From assembly GCA_945878865.1 (NCBI GenBank), contig CAMCUD010000005.1, positions 62,001-126,000 on the forward strand: DNA of 64,000 bases, written 5' to 3'. Below the pieces are notes generated by a model. The model saw nothing but the letters and a program-made list of their open reading frames with translations, was not told the origin of the DNA and did no database searches. This document shows positions 633 to 56,489 of the stretch, piece by piece (within the stretch, counting starts at the first letter, position 1; the number at the start of each line of letters is the position of its first letter). Source of the stretch: Bifidobacterium breve (GTDB lineage Bacteria > Actinomycetota > Thermoleophilia > Solirubrobacterales > Solirubrobacteraceae). A program made the translations under genes and the position numbers.

Positions 633-1556
633 ATGACGGCGCGCGCCCGCTCGCTGCGCGAACGCGACGCCGCGTCCGCGCGCCTGGCCGACCTGCCGCG
701 CGATCCCGACGTCTCCGTGGTCGTGATGGGCTCGTGGGGCCGCCTGGAGCTCACGAGCGGCAGCGATCACGACTTCGTCGTGCTCGTCGGCGGCGCCGAG
801 CGCGGCGCCGTCCTGCCCACCCCTGCGCAGGTCGGCGACGTCCTCGACAAGCCACCGAGCGCGTCCGGCGCGTTCGACGACATCGCCTTCGTCGAGCATC
901 TGACGACGCGCATCGGCCTGCGCGACGACGACAACGACAACCTCACGCGCCGGATGCTCCTCGTGCTCGAGTCGATCGCCATCGCCGGGAGCGACGCGCA
1001 CGAGCGCGCACGCCGGTCGGTCATCGAGACGTACATCGACACGCGCGTGAAGGACTACCGCCCGCCGCGGTTCCTGCTCAACGACCTCATGCGCTACTGG
1101 CGCACGATCTGCGTGGACTTCGAAGGCAAGCAGCGCGACCACACCGACAAGTGGGCACTGCGCGCAGCGAAGCTCCGCACGTCGCGCAAGCTGCTCTACG
1201 CCAGTGGCCTGCTCCCCGTCCTGGAGTGCCACGACCTGCGGGCCGACGAGATGCGCACCTGGCTGGCCGAGACGTTCGCCGCGCCGCCGGTGGATCGCGT
1301 CGCCGACGCGTTCCTGCGCCACCAGGCCTACGACACCGGGATCCGCACGCTCACCGCGTACGACCGGTTTCTCGGCCGCCTCGACGACGGCGCCTTCCGC
1401 GACGAGCTGCGCCAGCTCGCGCGCGGAGAGGAGCACCGGTCGCCCGCGTGGACGGAGGCACGCCGGCTGGGACGCCAGATCGAAGAGGGCCTGCTCGCCC
1501 TGCTCTTCGACCGCGATGCGCTCGCCCGCCTGGTCCGCCAGTACGGGCTGTTCTGA
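633..1556 (+). CDS. Nucleotidyltransferase-domain protein (DUF294/GlnD-like)
   Basis: About 307 residues from the ATG at 633. GSWGR at residues 33-37 followed by SDHDF at 44-48 is the nucleotidyltransferase fold signature (GS-G-R then D-x-D metal ligands) seen in GlnD N-terminal domains and DUF294 signal proteins. The remainder is helical and charged, like the DUF294 C-terminal helical part. No CBS or cNMP domain is present, so it is a minimal version. The frame looks protein-like back to about 573 and would overlap the preceding stop, so the start may be further upstream, for example a CTG at 570; no good ribosome site decides it. Target and nucleotide are unknown. Confidence 0.65.
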   Translation: MTARARSLRERDAASARLADLPRDPDVSVVVMGSWGRLELTSGSDHDFVVLVGGAERGAVLPTPAQVGDVLDKPPSASGAFDDIAFVEHLTTRIGLRDDDNDNLTRRMLLVLESIAIAGSDAHERARRSVIETYIDTRVKDYRPPRFLLNDLMRYWRTICVDFEGKQRDHTDKWALRAAKLRTSRKLLYASGLLPVLECHDLRADEMRTWLAETFAAPPVDRVADAFLRHQAYDTGIRTLTAYDRFLGRLDDGAFRDELRQLARGEEHRSPAWTEARRLGRQIEEGLLALLFDRDALARLVRQYGLF

Positions 1557-1571
1557 CCCGACAGCGGACGT

Positions 1572-4500
1572 TCAGCCGCGGAACACCGTCAGCCCGGGAC
1601 GCAGCGCCGGCCCGCCCGCCGCCGGGGTCAGCCGCGGCTGCAGACGCAGGATGCCGACAGCCGGCCGGGCCGGAAGCGGCAAGGTGACCCGCCGTGCCTT
1701 CGGGCCGACCTTCACGGCGACCCCGCCGAGCCGCAGCACCGCCGGGACGTTCGTCGCCACGGTGACGACGACGCGCCGCGCCTTCGGCTTCACCCGAGCA
1801 GCGCGCAGCGTGCGCAGCTCGAGGGCGACCGGGTCGACACGGGTCGTGCGCTTCACGGTGGTCTCGCGGCCGAGCGTGTCGCGGGCGACGAGCCGGAGCG
1901 TCGTCCGTCCGCCCGGCAGGCGAACGCGAACGCGCTCACCGGTCCCGAGACGCTCCCGGCCGGCGAACCACGTCAGTGCGCGGCCGCGCAGCCGGCGGCC
2001 GTTCTCGTCGGCGGCCTGACCGAGCAGCACGACCTTCGCGGCGGCGGTCCCGCGGTCGCGCGGTCCGGGCAGGACGATCCGGGCGGTCGGCGGCCGTCCG
2101 TCGATACGCAGGGCCGGCGAGGTCGCCGTGGCGGTGGCGAACCCGTCGCTGACCTTGACGCGGATCCTCGCCTTCGTGCCCGCCTTCAACAGCCCCGGCG
2201 AAAGCGTCGCCGTCCCACTCGCGGCCCCGCGCAGGACGGTCCGCCACTTCGAGCGACCATCGGGGGAGAACTCGATCGAGGCCGTCAGCGGACCTCCGTC
2301 GGGATCGCCGGCGCGGTAGCGGACCTTCAGCGCGCCGCGCACCCGCGTCCCCGCCTTCGACGGCGCGAGGATCTTCACGGTGGGCGGACGGCCCTGCGCT
2401 CGCCGGTCGACGACCTCCCCGCCGGAGACGAGCTCCACGGCGGCGCTGCCCTTGGGCACCGGCGCGATGAAGGTCGTCGCACCCGAGTCGGTGCTCGTCT
2501 CCACCCGGGCGCCGGCCTCGCCGATCGTCTGTCCGGCGGCGCCCAGTCCCCGTACGCGCAGCCCGGAGCCGGGGTCGCCTGCGGGCACGACGTGCTCGGC
2601 GTCGGCGGGCTCGAGCCCGGTGATCCGCGCCCGGCCGTCGACGACCGTCCCGACGACGAATCCCGCGCCGAAGACGGTCGGCACCGTTCCCGGTGCCTGG
2701 GCGACCTTCGCGCTGCGCCGGATCGGAACCTGGAACGTGGTCGGCACCACGCTCTCGGCCTCGATCATGAAGGCGAACGCGCGGTTCCAGTTGCGCGGGG
2801 ATAGCCAGGCCGTCGGGTCACCGGTGCAGTACGACATGAAGTCCCACAGCGGCTGCGAGACGTTCGCGACGACCGTGTCGCTGTCGACGGTCCGGGCGCC
2901 GGTCGCGGGATCGAACTTCACGCCTTGCAGCCGGCCGGCCTGATCGCCCGGCCACGGCTCGCCGACCTGCCCGTTGGCGTCGCCGCCGCACGAGAGATCG
3001 CCGACGAGCCCGCCCAGGTTCTTGCCCGCGTGCGGCGCACCCAGCGTGTGGACGAGCTCGTGCGTCGCCGACGTCATCAGGCGGTTCACGGACCCGTCGT
3101 TGAGCTCCATGTAGGGCTGATTGTTCGAGCGTCCCCACTTCCCGACACCGTCGCCGTTGAAGCTCGACCCCGGCTCGGTCACGCCAGCGGTGAACTGGTA
3201 GTTGTGCAGCGCGGCGAGGACGTGGAAGCCGTCGGTCGGCGACGCCTCGACCGTTCGTGCGGGGCCGCTGGCGACCCAGGCCCGGATCGCGTTCGTCACG
3301 TTCGCGCTCGCGCAGCGGCGCAGCCGGGCCGGTGTGGCGGTTGCGGTCTCACCGCCCTCAGGAACGGGGCAGTTCGTCGCGTTGGTCGCGGTCACCGGGT
3401 CGATCTGGACCTGCGCGACGTACGGCGAGATCTGGAAGTGCTCCCCGGCGGGAAGCAGGGTGCGGGCGGACGCGAACGCGGATTCAGGCGTGCGCAGGGA
3501 CGTCAGCGTCTGCGACGGCGTCGTCACCCCGATGGTCCGGATGATCCCCGAGAACGGAAGGAACCGGGCCGGCACGTCGGTGACCTTGAACGTGTCGTTC
3601 GTGCTGCACCCGCCGGTTGCGGCCGTGAGCACCACGGCGCGTCCCTGGTCGCACTGCACGACGTTGGACGCATCGACGACCGTCACCGTGGCCTGCAGGT
3701 CGAACGTGCCGTTGGCGGCCGCCGCGATCCACGCCGCCGGGATGTCGAAGCGCACCCCGAACCGCTCGTCCCCCCGCTCGGCTTCGGTGACGGCGTCGCT
3801 CGGTGAGCTCTCCACGTTGATCGCCCGGACGGACTGGGTGAGCGCCGCGTTCACCCGCGGGCCGGCGGTCATGCGCAACCGCACCTGCAGCTGCGCGTCG
3901 ATGTGCGCGGGCAGCGCGTCGGGCGCGCGGTCGAGGTAGACGACGGCGCTCGTCGGCTTGTCAGCGTCGAGCATGACGCCCTGGTAGCGCGCCTGCTGGG
4001 TGGCGTCCCCGTTCGCCGCGCAGCCGGGAAGCACGAGGGCGGTGGGCGTGCCACCCCCGCACAGGGTCGGGAAGCCGAGGTCGCGCTGCGGGAACCCGTC
4101 GAACGCGTACTGCTTGGCGCCGCTGGAGGGCTGCACGATCTGGAAGACGTCGATCCCCCGGATGCGCATGTCGCCGACGATGCGCTGGTTCTCGACGATC
4201 GGCACCCTCGTGCTGGTGAGCGGCGCCGACTGCGGGACGATCCGGGTGGGGCCGCTCGCACCGATCGTGGCGCCTGAGCGCGTCGTCGCCGTCACGATGC
4301 AGAAGAAGCGGCGGATCGGGCTCGTCGCACTGAGGATGATGGCCGACTTGCCGGTGACGAGCTTGGCGACGCTGGGCTTGCCGCTGAGCAGGCCGCCCTC
4401 GTATTCGTAGATCTTGCGCACGAACTTCGGGTCGGCGGCCAGCCCCTCCCACGTGCCGTTGGAGCACGAGTACCGAAAGCGGCCGTCGCGCTGCGTCGTG

Positions 4501-5414
4501 CTCTCGATCTCGGGTGGGGTGACGTTGCGCGCGGGCGGATCCGGCGTGACGACGGGAGGCGCTGGAGGCGTCGGCTCGGGCGTGGGAGTCGGCGTCACCG
4601 GCGGATCGGTGGACGGGGCAGGCAGCACCCGGGGCTCGGGCCCGGGTGAGTTCTGCAGCCACGCCATCTCGACAGCCGTGAGCGCGCGCGGGTAGACGCG
4701 CACCTCGTCGAGCGTGCCCGTGTACTGGAAGCCCGGAAGTGAGCACCCGCCGTCCGGGTACCGGCCGACGCCGAGGCGCTTCTCGCCGGTGTACCGGAAG
4801 TGATCGATGCTCCCGCTCGGCGCGGGCACCTCGGAGACCGGCTGCCCGTCGAGGTACAGCGTCAGGCGACGAGTGACCTCGTCGAACGTCATACCCACGG
4901 CGTGCCACTGGCCGTCCCACACCTGTGCTGCGGGAAGCTGCGTGGTGCTGGCCGACGAGCGGGTGCCGGCGACATCCAGCGTCACGTACGCCTGCAGGCC
5001 TCCGGACGAGCCGGTGTAGATCGCGTACGCGCTGTCCGAGCACCCCAGCGCGCCCTTGCCGACGATCGTCCGGAACGGACCGGGTGTCCCGCTGCGACGC
5101 ACCCAGGCCAGCGTGGAGACCGACGTGGGGCGCAGCAGGTCCTCACGAGCGCCGACGAGGAACCCGTGGCCCGCCGCGGAGAGCTGGAGGCCGTCGCCGA
5201 ATCGCCCCGTCGTGACCGCGCCCGCGACGTCGGTCCCGGTGTTCCCCACCCCGGACGCGTCGGGCGTGGTCCCCGCCGTGACGGCGTCCAGGTGCCAGGT
5301 TCCCACCGAGGCCGTGTCCGCGCGTGCGGCGGCGGGCACCACGAGCGCCAGTCCCAGCGCAAGCACCGCACCCGTCGTCGCGCGGCGGGACATGAGACGA
5401 CAGCGGGGGCGCAT
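1572..5414 (-). CDS. Secreted LamG-domain zinc metalloprotease
   Basis: About 1280 residues, secreted. I chose the ATG at 5414 because a GGAG lies about 10 bases upstream; an ATG at 5393 has none. A signal peptide (hydrophobic core, likely cut after ARA at residue 32) leads into a LamG/concanavalin-like domain (about 38-245), then a Pro/Thr-rich linker. HELVHTLGAPH at about residue 785 is a complete HExxHxxGxxH zincin zinc site, so this is probably an active endoprotease. The C-terminal 350 or so residues look like Ig-like beta domains with the basic strands common in secreted proteins of this group. It is divergent from the kinase at 5521. Substrate and exact peptidase family are not evident. 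Confidence 0.85.
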   Translation of the reverse strand: MRPRCRLMSRRATTGAVLALGLALVVPAAARADTASVGTWHLDAVTAGTTPDASGVGNTGTDVAGAVTTGRFGDGLQLSAAGHGFLVGAREDLLRPTSVSTLAWVRRSGTPGPFRTIVGKGALGCSDSAYAIYTGSSGGLQAYVTLDVAGTRSSASTTQLPAAQVWDGQWHAVGMTFDEVTRRLTLYLDGQPVSEVPAPSGSIDHFRYTGEKRLGVGRYPDGGCSLPGFQYTGTLDEVRVYPRALTAVEMAWLQNSPGPEPRVLPAPSTDPPVTPTPTPEPTPPAPPVVTPDPPARNVTPPEIESTTQRDGRFRYSCSNGTWEGLAADPKFVRKIYEYEGGLLSGKPSVAKLVTGKSAIILSATSPIRRFFCIVTATTRSGATIGASGPTRIVPQSAPLTSTRVPIVENQRIVGDMRIRGIDVFQIVQPSSGAKQYAFDGFPQRDLGFPTLCGGGTPTALVLPGCAANGDATQQARYQGVMLDADKPTSAVVYLDRAPDALPAHIDAQLQVRLRMTAGPRVNAALTQSVRAINVESSPSDAVTEAERGDERFGVRFDIPAAWIAAAANGTFDLQATVTVVDASNVVQCDQGRAVVLTAATGGCSTNDTFKVTDVPARFLPFSGIIRTIGVTTPSQTLTSLRTPESAFASARTLLPAGEHFQISPYVAQVQIDPVTATNATNCPVPEGGETATATPARLRRCASANVTNAIRAWVASGPARTVEASPTDGFHVLAALHNYQFTAGVTEPGSSFNGDGVGKWGRSNNQPYMELNDGSVNRLMTSATHELVHTLGAPHAGKNLGGLVGDLSCGGDANGQVGEPWPGDQAGRLQGVKFDPATGARTVDSDTVVANVSQPLWDFMSYCTGDPTAWLSPRNWNRAFAFMIEAESVVPTTFQVPIRRSAKVAQAPGTVPTVFGAGFVVGTVVDGRARITGLEPADAEHVVPAGDPGSGLRVRGLGAAGQTIGEAGARVETSTDSGATTFIAPVPKGSAAVELVSGGEVVDRRAQGRPPTVKILAPSKAGTRVRGALKVRYRAGDPDGGPLTASIEFSPDGRSKWRTVLRGAASGTATLSPGLLKAGTKARIRVKVSDGFATATATSPALRIDGRPPTARIVLPGPRDRGTAAAKVVLLGQAADENGRRLRGRALTWFAGRERLGTGERVRVRLPGGRTTLRLVARDTLGRETTVKRTTRVDPVALELRTLRAARVKPKARRVVVTVATNVPAVLRLGGVAVKVGPKARRVTLPLPARPAVGILRLQPRLTPAAGGPALRPGLTVFRG

Positions 5415-5458
5415 GCCGCCGATTCTCCGCCGAGCGCCGTAGCGCCACGACCCACGAG

Positions 5459-47854: not shown

Positions 47855-49372
47855 CTACATCCGGAACACGCCGTACTTCACCGGCTCAAGCGGCGCCTTC
47901 GCGCACGCGGCGAGGGCGAGCGCGAGCGTGCGGCGGGTGTCGCGCGGGTCGATGATCCCGTCGTCCCACAGGCGCGCCGTCGCGTAGACCGGCTTGCCCT
48001 GCTCCTCGTACTGGTCCTTGAGCTTCGCCCCGACCTCGGGCTGGCCGACCTGTGTCATGACCGCCGCGGCCTGCTCGCCGCCCATCACGCTGATACGGGC
48101 GTTCGGCCACGTGAACAGGAACCGCGGCGAGTACGCGCGCCCGCACATGCCGTAGTTGCCGGCGCCGTGCGAGCCGCCGACGATGAGCGTGAGCTTGGGC
48201 ACCCGCGCGCACGACACGGCGGTCACCATCTTCGCCCCGTCCTTGGCGATGCCGCCCGCCTCGTACTCGCGGCCGACCATGAAGCCCGTGATGTTCTGGA
48301 CGAACAGGAGCGGGATGCCGCGCTGGTCGCAGAGCTCGATGAAGTGCGCGGCCTTCAGCGCGCTCTCGCTGAAGAGGATGCCGTTGTTCGCGACGATGCC
48401 GACGGGGTGGCCGTCGAGATGCGCGAACGCGCAGACGATGGTCTCGCCGTAGAGCGCCTTGAACTCCCGCAGCTCGCCGGCGTCGACGACGGCGCGCAGC
48501 AGCTGGCGGATGTCGTACGGGGTGCGCGCGTCGAGCGGGACGAGGTCGAGCAGCGTCTCGGGGTCCTCGGCCGGCGGGCGGGGCGCGATGCGCTCCCACG
48601 GCGGCGCGGGTTCCGCGGGCAGGGTCGCGACGATGCCGCGCAGGATCTCCAGCGCGTGGTGGTCGTCGTCGGCGAGGTGGTCGACGACGCCCGACGTGCG
48701 GGCGTGCACGTCGCCGCCGCCCAGCTCCTCGGCGGTGACCTCCTCCCCCGTGGCGGCCTTCACCAGCGGTGGGCCGCCGAGGAAGATCGTGCCCTGCTCG
48801 CGGACGATGACGGTCTCGTCGCTCATCGCCGGGACGTACGCGCCGCCCGCGGTGCACGAGCCCATGACCGCCGCCAGCTGCGGGATGCCCCGGGCCGACA
48901 TCGTCGCCTGGTTGAAGAAGATGCGGCCGAAGTGCTCGCGGTCGGGGAAGACCTCGTCCTGCATCGGCAGGAACGCGCCGCCGGAGTCGACGAGGTAGAT
49001 GCACGGCAGCCGGTTCTCCAGCGCCACCTCCTGCGCGCGCAGGTGCTTCTTGACCGTCATCGGGTAGTAGGTGCCGCCCTTCACCGTCGCGTCGTTGGCG
49101 ATGACCAGGCAGCGGCGGCCCTCGACGACGGCGACGCCCGCGACGACCCCGGCGGCGGGGGCGTCGCCGCCGTACATCTCCTCAGCGGCGAGCGGCGCGA
49201 CCTCGAGGAACGGGGCGCCTGGGTCGGCGAGCCGCTCGATGCGCTCGCGGGCCGGCAGCTTGCCGCGCTCGACGTGGCGCTGCATGGAGCGCTCACCGCC
49301 TCCCGCGCGGGCGCGCGCGACGCGCTGCTCGAGATCGTCGATGAGGGCGAGGTGACCGTCGCGGAAGCTCAT
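47855..49372 (-). CDS. liuB: Methylcrotonyl-CoA carboxylase, carboxyltransferase (beta) subunit
   Basis: 505 residues, full length. Carboxyltransferase N- and C-domains with [80 protein letters not shown] and [18 protein letters not shown], characteristic of the methylcrotonyl-CoA branch rather than propionyl-CoA. It transfers carboxyl from biotin to 3-methylcrotonyl-CoA in leucine breakdown. It overlaps liuD by 4 bases (ATGA) and is the last gene of the operon. Confidence 0.93.
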
Positions 49373-51312
49373 GCGTCCTCCCCGGCGAGCGCGGCGAGGG
49401 CGACGAGCTCCTGCCGCTGGACGACCCGGTCGCCCGGGGCGAGATCGAGGGTCTCGACGACGCCGGCGTGCGGCGCGGTGATCTGCAGCTCCATCTTCAT
49501 CGACTCCAGGACGAGGAGGACGTCGCCCTCGGCGACCGTGTCCCCGGGCTTGGCGTGCACGAGCAGGACCGTGCCGGGCATCGGCGCCTCGAGGTGCGCG
49601 CCGCCGAAGGCGTGGGCGGCGCGGGGTCGCGCCTCACGGCGCAGGTGCAGCTGGTGCCCGTCGCGGGCGATCCACAGGCCGTCGGCATCGAACGCGACGG
49701 CGTAGCGGCGGACGTGACCGTCGAGCTCGACCGCCCACCCCGCCGAACGTCGAAATGTTGTTGCTCCAGCGACATCTCCTCGACGTTCGGCGGTGACGCG
49801 GACCGAGTGGGTGGTGTCGCCGTGGCGCAGCCGGCCGTCGCGGATCTCGACCTCGCCGTGGTCGGCGAAGCGCGCGCGCCAGGGCCCCGGCGCGACGGTG
49901 AGGGCGGCGGTCTCCTGGTGCCACGCGACGGCGGCGCCCGCGAGGACGAGATCCTCCGGCGACGCGTGATCGACATCGGCGAGCCGCCGCTCGAGCAGGC
50001 CGGTGTCCATGGCCCCCTCGCGGACGTCGGGATCGGCCAGCAGCGTCCGCGAGAACCCGACGCTCGTGGAGACGCCGAGCACGACCAGGTCGGCCAGGCC
50101 ACGGTCGAGCCGGTCGAGCGCCTGCAGACGGTCGTCACCGTGCGCGATGACCTTCGCGAGCATCGGGTCGTAGTCGCTCGTCACGACGCTGCCCGAGCGC
50201 ACGCCCGCGTCGACGCGGACGCCCGGTCCGTCCGGGGCCGTCCACTCGGCGACCTCACCGGTGCTCGGGAGGAAGCCGGACGCGGGGTCTTCCGCGTAGA
50301 TGCGCGCTTCGATCGCCCAGCCGCGAGGCTGGAGGTCGCCCTGTGCGAGGTCGAGGTGCGCGCCCTGAGCCACCCGCAGCTGCTGGGCGACGAGATCGAT
50401 GTCGTACACGAGCTCGGTCACGGGATGCTCGACCTGCAGCCGCGTGTTCATCTCCAGGAAGAAGAACCCGTCGCCGTCGGCGGGGACGATGAACTCCACC
50501 GTGCCGGCCCCGACGTAGCCGGCGGCCTGTGCGAGCGCGACGGCCGCATCGCCCATCGCCGCGCGCATCGCCGTGGTGACCAGCGGCGACGGCGCCTCCT
50601 CGATGACCTTCTGGTGGCGGCGCTGCAGCGAGCACTCGCGCTCGCCGAGGTGCACGCAGGCCCCGTGCGTGTCGGCCAGCACCTGGACCTCGATGTGGCG
50701 CGGACGTTCGAGGTAGCGCTCGACGAGCACGCGGTCGTCCCCGAACGCGGCGGTCGCCTCGCGCCGCGCCGCGGCGAACGCGGCCTCCAGCTCGCCCGCC
50801 TCACGCACGACGCGCATGCCCTTCCCGCCGCCGCCCGCCAGGGCCTTGATGACGATCGGGTACCCGTGCTCGGCGGCGAGCTGCCGCGCGGCGTCGACCT
50901 CGATGTCGTCGCCGTCGATCCCCGGGACCACGGGCACGCCGGCCTCACGGGCCAGCGCCTTCGCGCGCGCCTTGTCGCCCAGCAGCTCGATCGCGGCGGG
51001 CGGCGGGCCGACCCACGTCAGGCCCGCGTCGGCGACCGCCTGCGCGAACGCGGCGCTCTCGGCGAGGAATCCGTAGCCGGGGTGCACCGCGTCGGCGCCG
51101 GTGCGCGCGGCGGCCGCGAGCAGCTTGTCGATCGCCAGATAGGACTCGCGCGCCGGCGCTGGGCCGAGTCGGACGGCTTCGTCGCAGGCTTCGACGTGCA
51201 GTGCGCCCTCGTCGGCATCACTGAACACCGCGACCGTGCGGATCCCCAGGTCGCGCGCAGTCCGCGCGACGCGCACCGCGATCTCCCCGCGGTTGGCGAT
51301 CAGAAGCTTCAT
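49369..51312 (-). CDS. liuD: Methylcrotonyl-CoA carboxylase, biotin-carboxylase/BCCP (alpha) subunit
   Basis: 647 residues from ATG 51312. Biotin carboxylase: [74 protein letters not shown]. The C-terminal BCCP has Lys606 in [10 protein letters not shown] for biotin. It hydrolyses ATP to carboxylate biotin. A 52-bp palindrome (49741-49792) lies in the linker and adds about 17 residues ([17 protein letters not shown]) in frame with unusually AT-rich codons. Overlaps link it to liuE (51309-51312) and liuB. Confidence 0.94.
49741..49792. mobile_element. 52-bp palindromic insert inside liuD
   Basis: Perfect 13-bp arms (49741-49753 and 49780-49792) around a 26-base core with about 50 percent GC, against more than 70 percent around it. 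The frame is preserved. It resembles small palindromic elements that insert into coding regions in some bacteria. No second copy was seen in this window. Confidence 0.55.
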
Positions 51313-52229
51313 CCGCGCTGCCAGTCGATCGGACCCGCAACGAGCGTGTGGCTGCCCAGCGGCCGCCCGAGCACCTCGCGCACGTCGCGCGCGCACTCCA
51401 GCAGCTGATCGAGGTCGACCCCCGTCTGCACGCCCATCTCGTGGAGCATCGAGACGAGGTCCTCGGTGGCGATGTTCCCCGTCGCGCCCGCGGGGACCGG
51501 GCAGCCGCCCAGCTCGCCGAAGCTCGACTCGAAGCTCTCGCACCCGGCCTCCAGCGCGGCGAGGACGTTCGCCAGCCCCTGGCCGCGCGTGTTGTGGAAG
51601 TGCGCGGTGAGCTCCACGCCCGGCAGCGCCTCGCGCGCGCGGGTGAAGACGTCGCGGACCTGGAGCGGATTCGCCATGCCGGTGGTGTCGCCGAACGCGA
51701 TCTCCGGCGCGCCGGCGGCGGCCAGCCGCTGCGCGATCTCGAGCACCCGGTCGAGCGCGACCTCTCCCTCGTAGGGGCAGCCGAACGACGTCGCGATCAC
51801 CGCCTCGACGTGCAGTCCGGCGGCGTTCGCGGTCGCGATGACCTGCTCCAGGCCGGCGAGCGATTCGTCGGTGGAGCGGTTGACGTTCTTGCGGTTGTGC
51901 GTGTCCGAGGCCGACAGGAAGACGCCGATGTCGTCGAAGCGGTCACGCAGCAGCAGCGCGCGCTCGAGCCCGCGGGCGTTGGGGATGAGCACCGACACCT
52001 CGACGTCCTCCGGGATGTCGATCCCGCGCAGCACCTGGTCGGCGTCGGAGAGCTGCGGGATCACGTCCGGCCGCACGAAGCTCGTCACCTCGATGCGGCG
52101 CAGGCCCGTGCGCATGAGCCCGTCGATGAGGCGGATCTTGTCTTCGGTCGGGATCGTCTCCGGCTCGTTCTGAAAGCCGTCGCGCGGCCCGACCTCGCGG
52201 ATGCGGACCGCCGCCGGCAGCGCGGTCAT
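51309..52229 (-). CDS. liuE: Hydroxymethylglutaryl-CoA lyase
   Basis: 306 residues. REVGPRDGFQNE, ATSFGCPYEGEV, ELTAHFHNTRGQGLANVLAA and GELGGCPVPAGATGNIATED include the HMG-CoA lyase signature and the metal-binding and catalytic cysteine region. It splits HMG-CoA into acetyl-CoA and acetoacetate, the final leucine step. Overlaps by 4 bases with both neighbours make the cluster tightly coupled. Confidence 0.94.
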   Translation of the reverse strand: MTALPAAVRIREVGPRDGFQNEPETIPTEDKIRLIDGLMRTGLRRIEVTSFVRPDVIPQLSDADQVLRGIDIPEDVEVSVLIPNARGLERALLLRDRFDDIGVFLSASDTHNRKNVNRSTDESLAGLEQVIATANAAGLHVEAVIATSFGCPYEGEVALDRVLEIAQRLAAAGAPEIAFGDTTGMANPLQVRDVFTRAREALPGVELTAHFHNTRGQGLANVLAALEAGCESFESSFGELGGCPVPAGATGNIATEDLVSMLHEMGVQTGVDLDQLLECARDVREVLGRPLGSHTLVAGPIDWQRG

Positions 52230-53359
52230 GCGCCGAGCGCCCTCGCGATGACCATCTGCTGAACCTCGTCGGTGCCCTCGCCGATCGTGAGGATCTTCGC
52301 GTCGCGGTAGAAGCGGCAGACCGGGTACTCCTCGATGAAGCCGTAGCCGCCGTGGATCTGCACGGCCTCCTCCGAGCACTTCACCGCGAGGCGGCCGGTC
52401 TTCAGCTTCGCCTGCGCCGCCGTCAGGGAGAAGTCCTCGCCCTGGTCCTTCAGCCACGCGGCCTTGTAGACGAGCAGCCGCGCGGCCTCGATCTCCGTCG
52501 CCATGTCCGCGAGCTTCGCCTGGATGGCCTGGAACTTCGAGATGGACTGCCCGAAGGCCTGGCGCTCCTTGGCGTAGGCCAGCGCCTCGTCGAGCGCGCC
52601 CTGCGCGAGGCCGACGCCCATCGCCGCGACGCCGATGCGGCCGATGTCGAGGATCTTCAGGAACTGCTTGAAGCCGCTTCCGCGCGGGCCGAGGAGGTGG
52701 TCCTCGGGGACCTCGCAGTCGGTGAACGTCAACGGCCGGGTGTCCGACGCGTTCCAGCCCATCTTGCGGTACGGCTCGCCCTGGTCGTAGCCCGGCGTGC
52801 CGTTGGGGACCAGGAGATTGGAGATCTCGCGCTCGCCCGTCTTCGCGGTGATGGCGACGACGCCGCTGATGTCCGTCCCGGCGTTCGTGATGAACTGCTT
52901 GGCGCCGTTGATGACCCACGTGCCGTCACGCAGCTCGGCGCGGGTCTTCGTGTTCCCCGCGTCGCTGCCGGCATCGGGCTCGGTCAGGCCGAACGCGCCG
53001 AGCACCTCGCCGCTGGTGAGCTTCGGCAGCCACTCGGCCTTCTGCTGCTCGGAGCCGAAGAGGTAGATCGGCTGGGTGCCGAGGCTCGTGTGCGCGCAGA
53101 GCGTGATCGCCACGGAGCTGTCGACGCGCGTGAGCTCCTCGACGGCCAGCGCGTAGGCGAGTGTGTCGCCGCCCGCGCCGCCGACCTCCTCGGGGAACGG
53201 GATGCCCATGAGCCCGAGCTCGCCGAGCTTCCTGACGATCTCGTACGGGAACGACTTCGTGCGATCGAGCTCCTCGGCGACGGGCGCCACCTCGCCGGTG
53301 GCGAAGTCGCGCACCGTCCGCTGGATGGCCTGGTGCTGGTCGGAGAGGGCGAAGAGCAT
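52226..53359 (-). CDS. liuA: Isovaleryl-CoA dehydrogenase-type acyl-CoA dehydrogenase
   Basis: 377 residues from ATG 53359. FGLTEPDAGSDAGNTKTRAE, KQFITNAGTDISGVVAITAK and QIHGGYGFIEEYPVCRFYRD are acyl-CoA dehydrogenase signatures; the C-terminal EGTDEVQQMVIARALG end is typical. Context with HMG-CoA lyase and methylcrotonyl-CoA carboxylase supports isovaleryl-CoA as substrate, with electrons passed to ETF. TACAGT (53371-53366 on the minus strand) lies six bases before the start, implying a leaderless operon mRNA. It is the first gene of the operon. Confidence 0.9.
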   Translation of the reverse strand: MLFALSDQHQAIQRTVRDFATGEVAPVAEELDRTKSFPYEIVRKLGELGLMGIPFPEEVGGAGGDTLAYALAVEELTRVDSSVAITLCAHTSLGTQPIYLFGSEQQKAEWLPKLTSGEVLGAFGLTEPDAGSDAGNTKTRAELRDGTWVINGAKQFITNAGTDISGVVAITAKTGEREISNLLVPNGTPGYDQGEPYRKMGWNASDTRPLTFTDCEVPEDHLLGPRGSGFKQFLKILDIGRIGVAAMGVGLAQGALDEALAYAKERQAFGQSISKFQAIQAKLADMATEIEAARLLVYKAAWLKDQGEDFSLTAAQAKLKTGRLAVKCSEEAVQIHGGYGFIEEYPVCRFYRDAKILTIGEGTDEVQQMVIARALGA

Positions 53360-54131: not shown

Positions 54132-55013
54132 TCAGCGCGGGGTGAGGCCGGTGCCGATCCAGTCGCTGATCAGCGCGTTGACGCGGCCGGGGTCCTCGAG
54201 CTGGAGGAAGTGCCCCACGCCCGGGACCTTTGCGAACCGGCTGCCGTCGGGCAGCGCCCCGATCGCGCGCTCGCCGAGCGCGGGATGGATGCAGCCGTCG
54301 TGCTCGCCGTGCAGATACAGCGCGGCGGCGCCCGCCCGGGTGCGCGCCAGGCGGCCGAACTCGCCCTGCAGCGTGTTGCGGTAGTAGCGCAGCGCGGCGC
54401 GGCGGTGCGCGCGGTCGGGCAGCGCGGCGAACAGATGGCGCAGGTCCTCCGACGCGTCGTAGCCCGGAGACCAGTCGCGCCACAGCTGGGGGATGACCCG
54501 GCCGAGCAGCCGCTCGCTGCCGGGGATCTGGTTGAAGCCCATGTACCAGCTCATCCGCAACTGGCGGAGGGTCAGGCGCGGCGGCGAGGGCTCGGCCAGC
54601 CCGGCGGGCGGCGGCACGGCCATCGCGACGTAGCGGGCGAAGCGCCCCGGCGCCGCCGCGGTCACCGCCCACGTCGCCACGGCGCCCCAGTCGTGGCCGA
54701 CGAGCACGGAGCGCGCGTCGCCGCCGAGCGCGTCGCGTAGCTCGATCGCGTCGCGGGCGAGGTTCGAGACGGCGTAGCGGTCGTCGGGCGCGAGCTCCGT
54801 CGGCGCGTACCCGCGGGAGAACGGCGCCACCGCGCGCCAGCCCTGCTCGGCCAGATGCGGGCCGAGATGCCGCCAGGTCCACGCGGTGTCCGGGTAGCCG
54901 TGCAGCAGCAGCGCGAGCGGCGCGCCCGGGTCGCCCCACTGCAGCGCTGCGAACGTCAGCCCGTTCGCGCGGACGCGCAGCTCCTGCGGGGCGGCGACCG
55001 CCACGGCGTTCAT
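54132..55013 (-). CDS. Alpha/beta hydrolase, epoxide-hydrolase type
   Basis: 293 residues. LLLHGYPDTAWTWRHLGPHL holds the HGYP oxyanion motif, VGHDWGAVATW the nucleophile Asp108 typical of epoxide hydrolases and haloalkane dehalogenases, and VPGVGHFLQLEDP the catalytic His. The cap domain (about 140-215) has SWYMGFNQIPGSERLL. It likely opens epoxides or cleaves a related ester in the cytoplasm. It overlaps the decapeptide-repeat gene upstream (ATGA), so they are co-translated. Confidence 0.88.
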   Translation of the reverse strand: MNAVAVAAPQELRVRANGLTFAALQWGDPGAPLALLLHGYPDTAWTWRHLGPHLAEQGWRAVAPFSRGYAPTELAPDDRYAVSNLARDAIELRDALGGDARSVLVGHDWGAVATWAVTAAAPGRFARYVAMAVPPPAGLAEPSPPRLTLRQLRMSWYMGFNQIPGSERLLGRVIPQLWRDWSPGYDASEDLRHLFAALPDRAHRRAALRYYRNTLQGEFGRLARTRAGAAALYLHGEHDGCIHPALGERAIGALPDGSRFAKVPGVGHFLQLEDPGRVNALISDWIGTGLTPR

Positions 55014-55843
55014 TCGGGCAGCTCCGGCTGGGTGCGCCGCCGGCCGCCGAGCCGCCCGGCGACGCGGCCGATCGGCAGGACCGCTTCGCGCAGCTCGCCG
55101 AGCGCGGGCTCGAGGCGCGTGAGCTGCTCGCCGATCGCGCCGACCTGCGTCTCGACGGAGTTCACGTGCGCAGGCAGCGCCGGCAGGTCACGCGTGGCGT
55201 CGGCCAGCGCCTGCAGCGCCTCCGTGACGTCGGCGAGCTTGCGCAGCGTCTCGTCGAGGCCACCGAGCTTCGTCAGCGTCTCGTCGAGGTCGGCGAGCCG
55301 CGCGAGCGTGTCGGGCAGCTCGCCGAGGCGCATGACGAGGCTGTCGTCGGCGAGCAGCTGGTCGACCGGGCCGCCGGGCGCGAAGAGCTGATCGAGGACG
55401 CCGCCGTCCTCGAGGATCCGGTCGAGCGTGCCGCCCTCCTCGGTGACGCGGTCCAGCGGCCCACCCTCCCCCGTGAGGCGGTCGACGGCCCCGCCCGGCG
55501 CGAACAGCCGGTCGAGCGGCCCACCGTCGATGAGCAGGCGGTCGACGATCCCGTCACGCTTGAGCAGGCGGTCGACCGGCCCGCCCGGCGCCATCGCGCG
55601 CCCGAGGGGCTTGTTGTCGCTCGTCAGCCGCGCGAGCTGCTCGAGACGGGCGAGCGGCCCGTCCTCGGCGGCGAGCCGGCCGAGCTGATCGATCGGCCCA
55701 CCCTCGGCGAGCACGATGCGAATGCGCTCTCCGTAGCCGCCGGCGCGGCGCCACGGGCCGTCCGGCGATCCGAGCGCGACCACGATCTCCGCGGCCGCGT
55801 ACGAGGCCCGCGCGGGAAGCGTGATGAGACCCAGGACGCCCAC
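55010..55843 (-). CDS. Decapeptide-repeat/coiled-coil protein of unknown function
   Basis: 277 residues from GTG 55843. After a short hydrophobic N-terminus (VLGLITLPARASYAAAEIVVAL, possibly membrane-peripheral), eight consecutive ten-residue units fit GGPLDRLxxx (with V, I, A or T at the third and fourth places, D-R or D-Q at five and six), spanning about residues 90-170. A leucine-heptad region follows (LARLADLDETLTKLGGLDETLRKL, about 180-260), likely a coiled coil. The repeats should form a regular solenoid. No known family fits; it is co-translated with the epoxide-hydrolase-like gene. Confidence 0.8.
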   Translation of the reverse strand: MGVLGLITLPARASYAAAEIVVALGSPDGPWRRAGGYGERIRIVLAEGGPIDQLGRLAAEDGPLARLEQLARLTSDNKPLGRAMAPGGPVDRLLKRDGIVDRLLIDGGPLDRLFAPGGAVDRLTGEGGPLDRVTEEGGTLDRILEDGGVLDQLFAPGGPVDQLLADDSLVMRLGELPDTLARLADLDETLTKLGGLDETLRKLADVTEALQALADATRDLPALPAHVNSVETQVGAIGEQLTRLEPALGELREAVLPIGRVAGRLGGRRRTQPELPE

Positions 55844-55887: not shown

Positions 55888-56466
55888 TCACGCCGGGGCG
55901 CGGATCCCCTCGAGGACGAGCGCGGCAAGCGCGTCGTAGGCGTCGGCGTCGTGCAGTCCCGTCGCGCCGCGGACCGCGCCCGTCTGGATGCGCTGCATCG
56001 TCGACGCGGTGACGTCGGCGACGAACGCGGTGTCGACCTCGCGGAACTCGCCGGCCCGGACGCCCTCGGTGAGGATGTCACGCACGCGCCCGGCGGCCAG
56101 CTCGGTGTTGCGCTCGTAGACCTCGCGCGCCGCCGCGTGGGCCCCGAGGTCCTCCATGAACGCCGCAGAGGCGGGTCGCAGCTCGCGGCCGATCGCGCGC
56201 AGGTAGGCCTCCAGCCGCGCGGTCGCCGACGCCGCCGACGCCGTGCGCGCCTCCACGGCGTCGGTCGAGGTGCGGAAGAAGTGGCGGACGACGTTGACCG
56301 TCACCTGCTCCTTCGTCTGCCCGAGCGCGTAGAGGGTTGTCTTCGAGCAGCGCAGCCGCGCCGCGAGGTCGGCGAGCGTGAACTGGCGGAAGCCCTCGGC
56401 GAGGAACAGCGCGAGCAGGCCGTCGAGCAGCTCCTCGCGGCGGGTCGTCGTGGCACTCGCGGGCAC
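55888..56466 (-). CDS. TetR/AcrR family regulator of the acyl-CoA locus
   Basis: 192 residues from GTG 56466 (ATG 56478 would add four residues). HTH: RQFTLADLAARLRCSKTTLYALGQTKEQV. The effector domain is of the common acyl-CoA-linked type (TASTMQRIQTGAVRG). TATGCT (56479-56474 on the minus strand) lies seven bases before the GTG, suggesting a leaderless transcript. It is divergent from an acyl-CoA dehydrogenase gene across a 26-bp operator. Confidence 0.88.
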   Translation of the reverse strand: MPASATTTRREELLDGLLALFLAEGFRQFTLADLAARLRCSKTTLYALGQTKEQVTVNVVRHFFRTSTDAVEARTASAASATARLEAYLRAIGRELRPASAAFMEDLGAHAAAREVYERNTELAAGRVRDILTEGVRAGEFREVDTAFVADVTASTMQRIQTGAVRGATGLHDADAYDALAALVLEGIRAPA

Positions 56467-56489
56467 GCCGCTCAGCATAGACCCCGAGC

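Follow-up and report, generated by a model that had tools for sequence, protein, structure and literature searches.

Actinobacterial proteins built of ten-residue repeats, with one short helix predicted in each unit

In the 64,000-nt stretch of DNA analysed here (the window), three genes follow one another on the minus strand: a TetR-type regulator gene, probably the first of the local unit, a gene for an unannotated protein built almost wholly of ten-residue units, and an epoxide-hydrolase-like gene. The locus raises the question of what such units (decads) build, whether they belong to a described family of repeats, and whether the hydrolase is the repeat protein's partner. The genes and the parts of the repeat protein are as follows.

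54132..55013, minus strand: gene for a 293-aa alpha/beta hydrolase of epoxide-hydrolase-like type; its start ATG and the stop of the repeat gene overlap (ATGA)
55010..55843, minus strand: gene of the decad-repeat protein (277 aa), from the GTG at 55843 to the stop at 55010-55012
55888..56478, minus strand: TetR-type regulator gene, 44 bp upstream of the repeat gene; TetR_N 4.4e-05, just under the cut-off
55772..55843, minus strand, residues 1-24: N-terminal helix, VGVLGLITLPARASYAAAEIVVAL, moderately hydrophobic, with a conserved P-x-R (alignment and AlphaFold2)
55586..55708, minus strand, residues 46-86: degenerate repeats, AEGGPIDQLGRLAAEDGPLARLEQLARLTSDNKPLGRAMAP, spaced by 13/16 residues, with a conserved PLGRA motif
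55337..55585, minus strand, residues 87-169: eight A-type decads in a row, with the consensus [GD]-G-P-L-D-R-L-[LT]-A-[EP]
55157..55336, minus strand, residues 170-229: B-type decads (LxxLxxLxxx), in the same register as the A-type; hydrophobic peak 3.35
55013..55156, minus strand, residues 230-277: C-terminal helix, ending in a conserved P-[LI]-G-R-V-A-x-R-[LI] and a basic tail, GRRR

An alternative GTG lies upstream at 55891 and would give a product of 293 aa; we take the GTG at 55843 as the start because homologs begin with MGLLxLALLPAR, which in the window protein reads VGVLGLITLPAR. By its pattern of substitutions the repeat ORF is a real coding gene under purifying selection: dN/dS is 0.32 between the window gene and its congeners (0.06-0.28 for other pairs), third codon positions vary most in the same comparison, and ten-residue indels are found among the gaps. 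The N-terminus, predicted by AlphaFold2 to be helical at residues 3-7 and 9-24, is hydrophobic in all aligned family members, with a mean Eisenberg hydrophobicity in the window protein of 0.46, below the transmembrane level.

The regularity of the array is beyond chance expectation. A preliminary description of this DNA had reported eight uninterrupted decapeptides of the form GGPLDRLxxx, and we confirm that the [GD]Gx[LVI][DE][RQK]L motifs stand exactly ten residues apart; none of 20,000 shuffles of the window protein had more than one motif or any ten-residue spacing. With a profile trained on the family, 13 decads are recognized in the window protein, 10 of them uninterrupted, and 709 in 47 members, the window protein included. 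Across these 709 units, positions 1 to 3 are Gly (52%) or Asp (33%), Gly (90%) and Pro (37%); positions 4 to 7 are Leu (59%), Val (23%) or Ile (11%), Asp (54%) or Glu (27%), Arg (66%) or Gln (16%), and Leu (65%); and positions 8 to 10 are Leu (41%) or Thr (26%), Ala (42%), and Glu (27%) or Pro (26%). Position 4 is thus Leu, Val or Ile in 93%.

Members hold a median of 16 units, with a median longest uninterrupted run of 14. An interrupted repeat in most relatives, named in the preliminary description as the outcome that would speak against its reading, is not what we find: six or more decads follow one another without a break in 46 of the 47 members, and the decad recurs uninterrupted 10-20 times in most of them. 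Gap runs between aligned arrays are mostly 10, 20, 30, 40, 50, 60 or 90 residues long; between members the arrays differ by whole units. At the DNA level, Tandem Repeats Finder reports 30-bp units with only 69-80% matches, and the decads inside the window protein are alike at 61% of bases and 45% of residues on average. Because these units are only moderately alike, the array looks old and maintained by selection at the protein level, and a recent DNA repeat is disfavoured.

The second half of the array had been described as a leucine-heptad coil, a reading that its periodicity contradicts. Residues 170-229 divide into decads (VMRLGELPDT LARLADLDET LTKLGGLDET LRKLADVTEA LQALADATRD LPALPAHVNS) in the register of the Gly-rich units, and their hydrophobic spectrum peaks at 3.33-3.35 residues, with a power of 15.2 at 3.33 residues, 1.7 at 3.5 and 0.4 at 7. 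In paralogs, which carry 14 to 29 consecutive decads of this type, the power reaches 38-62 at 3.33 and 0.1-0.2 at 3.5. The 3.33 period is sustained over 60 to 290 residues, and at 11/3 the power is 0 to 0.5. A heptad coiled coil is ruled out for this half by a hydrophobic period of 3.33 and not 3.5. Because the stretch continues the register, and because homologs contain arrays of its kind, the sequences distinguish two types of unit: an A-type, [GD]GPLDRL[LT]A[EP], and a Gly-poor B-type, LxxLxxLxxx. One homolog (L087) has fourteen LRPLETLGDx units. Two related proteins from the window's order consist of LDxLAxATxS decads without the Gly-Gly motif, about 29 in L035 (about 1473-2910, minus strand) and about 19 in L009 (1375-2409), and their 10/3-periodic arrays are even purer than that of the window protein.

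Does this repeat belong to a described family? The preliminary description had held it to be unlike known repeats, and we find no convincing match in Pfam, NCBIfam, PHROGs or the PDB, nor any match in them to an already described repeat family, which would have told against novelty. We scanned 27 members in Pfam and NCBIfam, comparing curated cut-offs for the window protein, and obtained only short or coiled-coil-like matches that were inconsistent between members. The best to Spectrin_Anc-1 was 1.7e-8 in one member (14.6 bits against a cut-off of 33.2 in the window protein), and the best sequence-profile match in the PDB, at 8e-6, was to the designed coiled coil sc-apCC-6 and covered the C-terminal part only. 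TPR and HEAT repeats give no significant Pfam match, and the unit here has ten residues and one short predicted helix; RTX repeats give none either, and the GGxGxDxUx pattern is absent and the period ten; nor do pentapeptide repeats, and AlphaFold2 predicts no strands. A search with a profile of the consensus decad returned no convincing new architecture outside the family except one SRPBCC protein, and the phage collection held no homolog of the repeat protein. In the literature, searched mainly in open journals, we found no paper on decapeptide repeats in actinobacteria or in solenoids or on the motif itself, and no experiment on any family member. Judged by sequence comparison, this ten-residue repeat family matches no described family in these libraries and is new.

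Two matches were set aside as chance, one to baculovirus P10 and one, over a short stretch, to the AAC(3) aminoglycoside acetyltransferase model NF033080 (15.9 bits in the window protein against a cut-off of 480). Short sub-threshold matches of the latter type recur in 14 of the 27 members around residues 58-112, the PLGRA/GGPLDRL stretch, at best with 1.1e-4. The SRPBCC protein (L016:1177-2304, plus strand) carries three A-type decads before its SRPBCC domain (polyketide cyclase/lipid transport, 1.8e-10), and by its sequence the A-type decad also exists as a short module.

Structure prediction gives the decad a simple form. In a full-length AlphaFold2 model computed from 26 aligned family members (pLDDT 81, pTM 0.32), residues 79-154 alternate between six-residue helices and four-residue loops, with pLDDT of about 80-93 by block, followed by long helices at 176-218 and 220-265; a repeat-only model (pLDDT 82.5, pTM 0.42) has the same units, and the models contain helices and no strands. 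Each decad is accordingly predicted to be one six-residue helix and one four-residue loop. The solenoid anticipated in the preliminary description is compatible with this regular local array of helices; the pTM of both models is low, and the helices may or may not pack into a solenoid. Foldseek searches of the PDB returned nothing for the full model (E <= 0.001) or for the repeat-only model (E <= 10), and those of viral structure predictions nothing significant; the absence of a match is no proof of a new fold. The long helices predicted for the B region are partly in conflict with the 10/3 period, because 10/3 is the lower limit of coiled-coil periodicity and is reached in coiled coils only locally, with 3-10 distortion (PMC4786415). 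The B-type helices are either broken at each unit too or packed in a way that has not been described.

The family extends well beyond this locus. In an alignment of 27 members, the window protein carries the hydrophobic N-terminus with P-x-R/K, the PLGRA-type motif and the decad array that mark the family, together with a C-terminal motif, RLP/RIP, in which it has RLGG where most have RLPG. Proteins of the same genus are 76-77% identical to it. Profile searches, which covered genomes within the phylum, gave any match in 51 of 232 genomes of the window's order, full-length members being scattered and C-terminal-type relatives reaching a larger number of genomes, and few members in the sampled phylum outside the mycobacterial family. 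Within that family the decad proteins are present in 113 of the 151 genomes sampled, from 26 of 31 genera, mostly in one to few copies per genome. A scan of named genomes with the window protein found a single Mycolicibacterium MAG, since such a scan detects close relatives only. Two Tsukamurella tyrosinosolvens records contain members annotated as hypothetical protein. Among side observations, in one genome the repeat gene occurs twice, at positions 4659-5423 and 9115-9813 of L160, about 4 kb from each other, and several further genomes hold more than one match. Additionally, a 185-aa protein encoded near another member (L081:3345-3902, minus strand) resembles the repeat protein in its N-terminal helix, MSLIRTVTAPARLALHVGHNVL, but contains no decads and matches nothing in Pfam; the helix may be a targeting element common to this protein and the repeat protein.

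In sampled mycobacteria the repeat gene and a PhoP/PhoR-type pair are usually transcribed divergently, and a HIT gene follows beyond the repeat gene and the pair; we take this position to be that of Rv0756c. We infer from this synteny that the mycobacterial members are its counterpart. A ChIP study in M. tuberculosis placed Rv0756c and phoP under one PhoP-bound region and found the expression of Rv0756c nearly unchanged between the wild type and a phoP mutant (PMC4038636).

Is the hydrolase a partner? The overlapping, hydrolase-like neighbour of the preliminary description is real: the 4-bp ATGA overlap is confirmed, and the product matches Abhydrolase_1 (5e-22) and EphA 5cw2 (1.6e-29), sharing with the latter an identical GHDWG nucleophile motif and a GH near the C-terminus and showing HGYP against HGFP at the HGxP motif. 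By sequence the neighbour is a genuine epoxide-hydrolase relative whose enzymatic activity is putative. The arrangement is, however, special to the window genome. Hydrolases of this alpha/beta subfamily, the only one that our count detects, adjoin the repeat gene in 1 of 47 loci, the window itself. Two congeners keep the repeat gene at a partly syntenic locus, where the downstream gene is small (about 100 residues) and unrelated; the hydrolases that match best in these congeners are only 34-35% identical and lie elsewhere, far away. Another genus shows a weak regional link and no operon: two of its genomes encode a 59-61% identical hydrolase at a distance of 19-24 kb from the repeat gene.

Other lineages have other neighbours (gene calls come from a simple codon model, and some neighbour starts are approximate). 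In seven loci an SMR transporter gene lies 54-75 bp upstream of the repeat gene, in seven an HhH-GPD glycosylase gene lies 21-89 bp upstream, in one a metallo-beta-lactamase-fold gene overlaps it by 4 bp downstream, and in some it has no paired neighbour. The SMR-type small multidrug transporter (L142, L146, L147, L150, L152, L153, L092) and the HhH-GPD base-excision repair gene (L143, L145, L148, L158, L159, L093, L098) are each lineage-specific. Because the hydrolase adjoins 1 of 47 loci and neighbours vary by lineage, there is no fixed partner gene across lineages, and the hydrolase was rejected as a conserved partner on the 47 loci and the ortholog search. In the window, an apparent acyl-CoA/leucine-type catabolic operon at 47855-53359 (minus strand), judged from its sequences to encode an acyl-CoA dehydrogenase, an HMG-CoA-lyase-like protein, a biotin-carboxylase-like protein and one further product, sits between genes that are close together in the congeners G001 and G002; it may mark an insertion that brought the hydrolase in.

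The explanation we favour, to which we give a little less than an even chance, is that the actinobacterial decad family is a structural or scaffold protein of adjustable length, made of one-helix units, possibly attached to a surface and without a fixed partner. Each unit would consist of an amphipathic helix of six residues (PLDRLL) and a Gly-Gly loop of four that closes it, the Gly-poor LxxLxxLxxx type predicted to carry the register on towards the C-terminus. Positions 4, 7 and 8 of successive units would then form one hydrophobic face and the conserved Asp5-Arg6 pairs a charge ladder, giving an elongated rod or solenoid whose length could be adjusted. The N-terminal helix and basic C-terminal tail may anchor the protein on a membrane or on some other surface, hydrophobic or anionic, where it would act as scaffold, spacer or surface coat, the hydrolase of the window being presumably an incidental local operon partner. 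Surface attachment through the N-terminal helix is a guess, because that helix is not hydrophobic enough for a typical transmembrane segment and the highest helical moments fall in part beyond its limits. Tentatively, and with some doubt, we also propose that the decad represents an undescribed structural class, a solenoid or rod with one helix per ten residues, Gly-rich and Gly-poor versions and a sustained 10/3 period.

The main rival, which we consider rather unlikely, is that the decads form no closed solenoid and coat a lipid surface, as short amphipathic helices with flexible Gly-Gly hinges on lipid bodies, polyester granules or a membrane, in a role like that of phasins, perilipins and apolipoproteins. 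The unit is indeed amphipathic, with positions 4, 7 and 8 set against D5 and R6, and a varying number of repeats, the hydrophobic N-terminus, models of low pTM and the frequency of the family in lipid-rich mycolic-acid bacteria would all suit a coat. Yet the 11/3 periodicity of known 11-mer lipid-binding repeats is absent, the strict unit length and near-invariant GG and DR exceed what a loose coat needs, and the models are locally of high confidence. A conventional alpha-helical coiled-coil rod with the Gly-rich half as a spacer strikes us as improbable: the two long AlphaFold2 helices and the weak coiled-coil-like Pfam and PDB matches to the part that these helices cover favour it, but over the whole range of array lengths given above hydrophobic residues recur every 3.33 positions instead of every 3.5 or 3.67, at a limit that coiled coils reach only locally (PMC4786415).

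Far less credible is the proposal of the preliminary description that the repeat protein is co-translated with the hydrolase and assembles with it as a complex or scaffold. The ATGA overlap and the related hydrolase 19-24 kb away in another genus are in its favour, and it is opposed by the adjacency at a single locus, by the two congeners that keep the repeat gene without an orthologous hydrolase, and by the different neighbours in other lineages. We give almost no credence to a calcium-binding RTX-like or pentapeptide-like beta-solenoid: regular Gly-Gly and Asp residues and a period-5 harmonic in the repeat protein recall one, against which stand the ten-residue unit, the lack of the RTX pattern and of any Pfam match, and predicted helices in place of strands.

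Three of every four genomes sampled from the mycobacterial family encode such a protein, often beside phoPR, and the libraries searched contain no domain model for it; if the decad does represent the structural class proposed above, it would be a widespread undescribed structural protein of that family. Because the unit is so short and the hydrophobic period stands at the stated limit of coiled-coil geometry, one structure would test a ten-residue helical solenoid directly. Further, exact units in variable number would offer protein design a natural modular rod.

Tandem helical repeats are of a known kind, and to our knowledge a ten-residue one-helix unit in two flavours has not been described; the decad is shorter than any alpha-solenoid unit we know of. 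The nearest comparison is within the family: the phoP-divergent mycobacterial members share with the window protein their decads, their N-terminal helix and the motif PL(S/G)xxAxR(I/L)P at the C-terminus, and differ from it in their 33-36% identity, their locus (phoPR, HIT-family gene) and the lack of a hydrolase. RTX nonapeptide repeats likewise show recurring Gly-Gly and Asp, whereas their period of nine, beta-roll and calcium ligands have no counterpart in the decad family. Phasins, perilipins and apolipoproteins may share a role, that of amphipathic repeats on hydrophobic surfaces, with lipid binding putative here; the decad family differs in lacking their 11-residue amphipathic periodicity (power 0 to 0.5 at 11/3) and any match to these families. 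TPR, HEAT, ARM and PPR alpha-solenoids resemble it in their tandem helical units and in the elongated array expected, but their units, typically helical hairpins, measure about 31-42 residues (PMC11514114), in contrast to ten residues and one predicted six-residue helix. Finally, the decads, or stammers, of coiled coils share LxxLxxLxxx and a 10/3 period with the B-type array; in known coiled coils the decad is a single local insertion (PMC4786415), whereas in the decad family many follow in succession.
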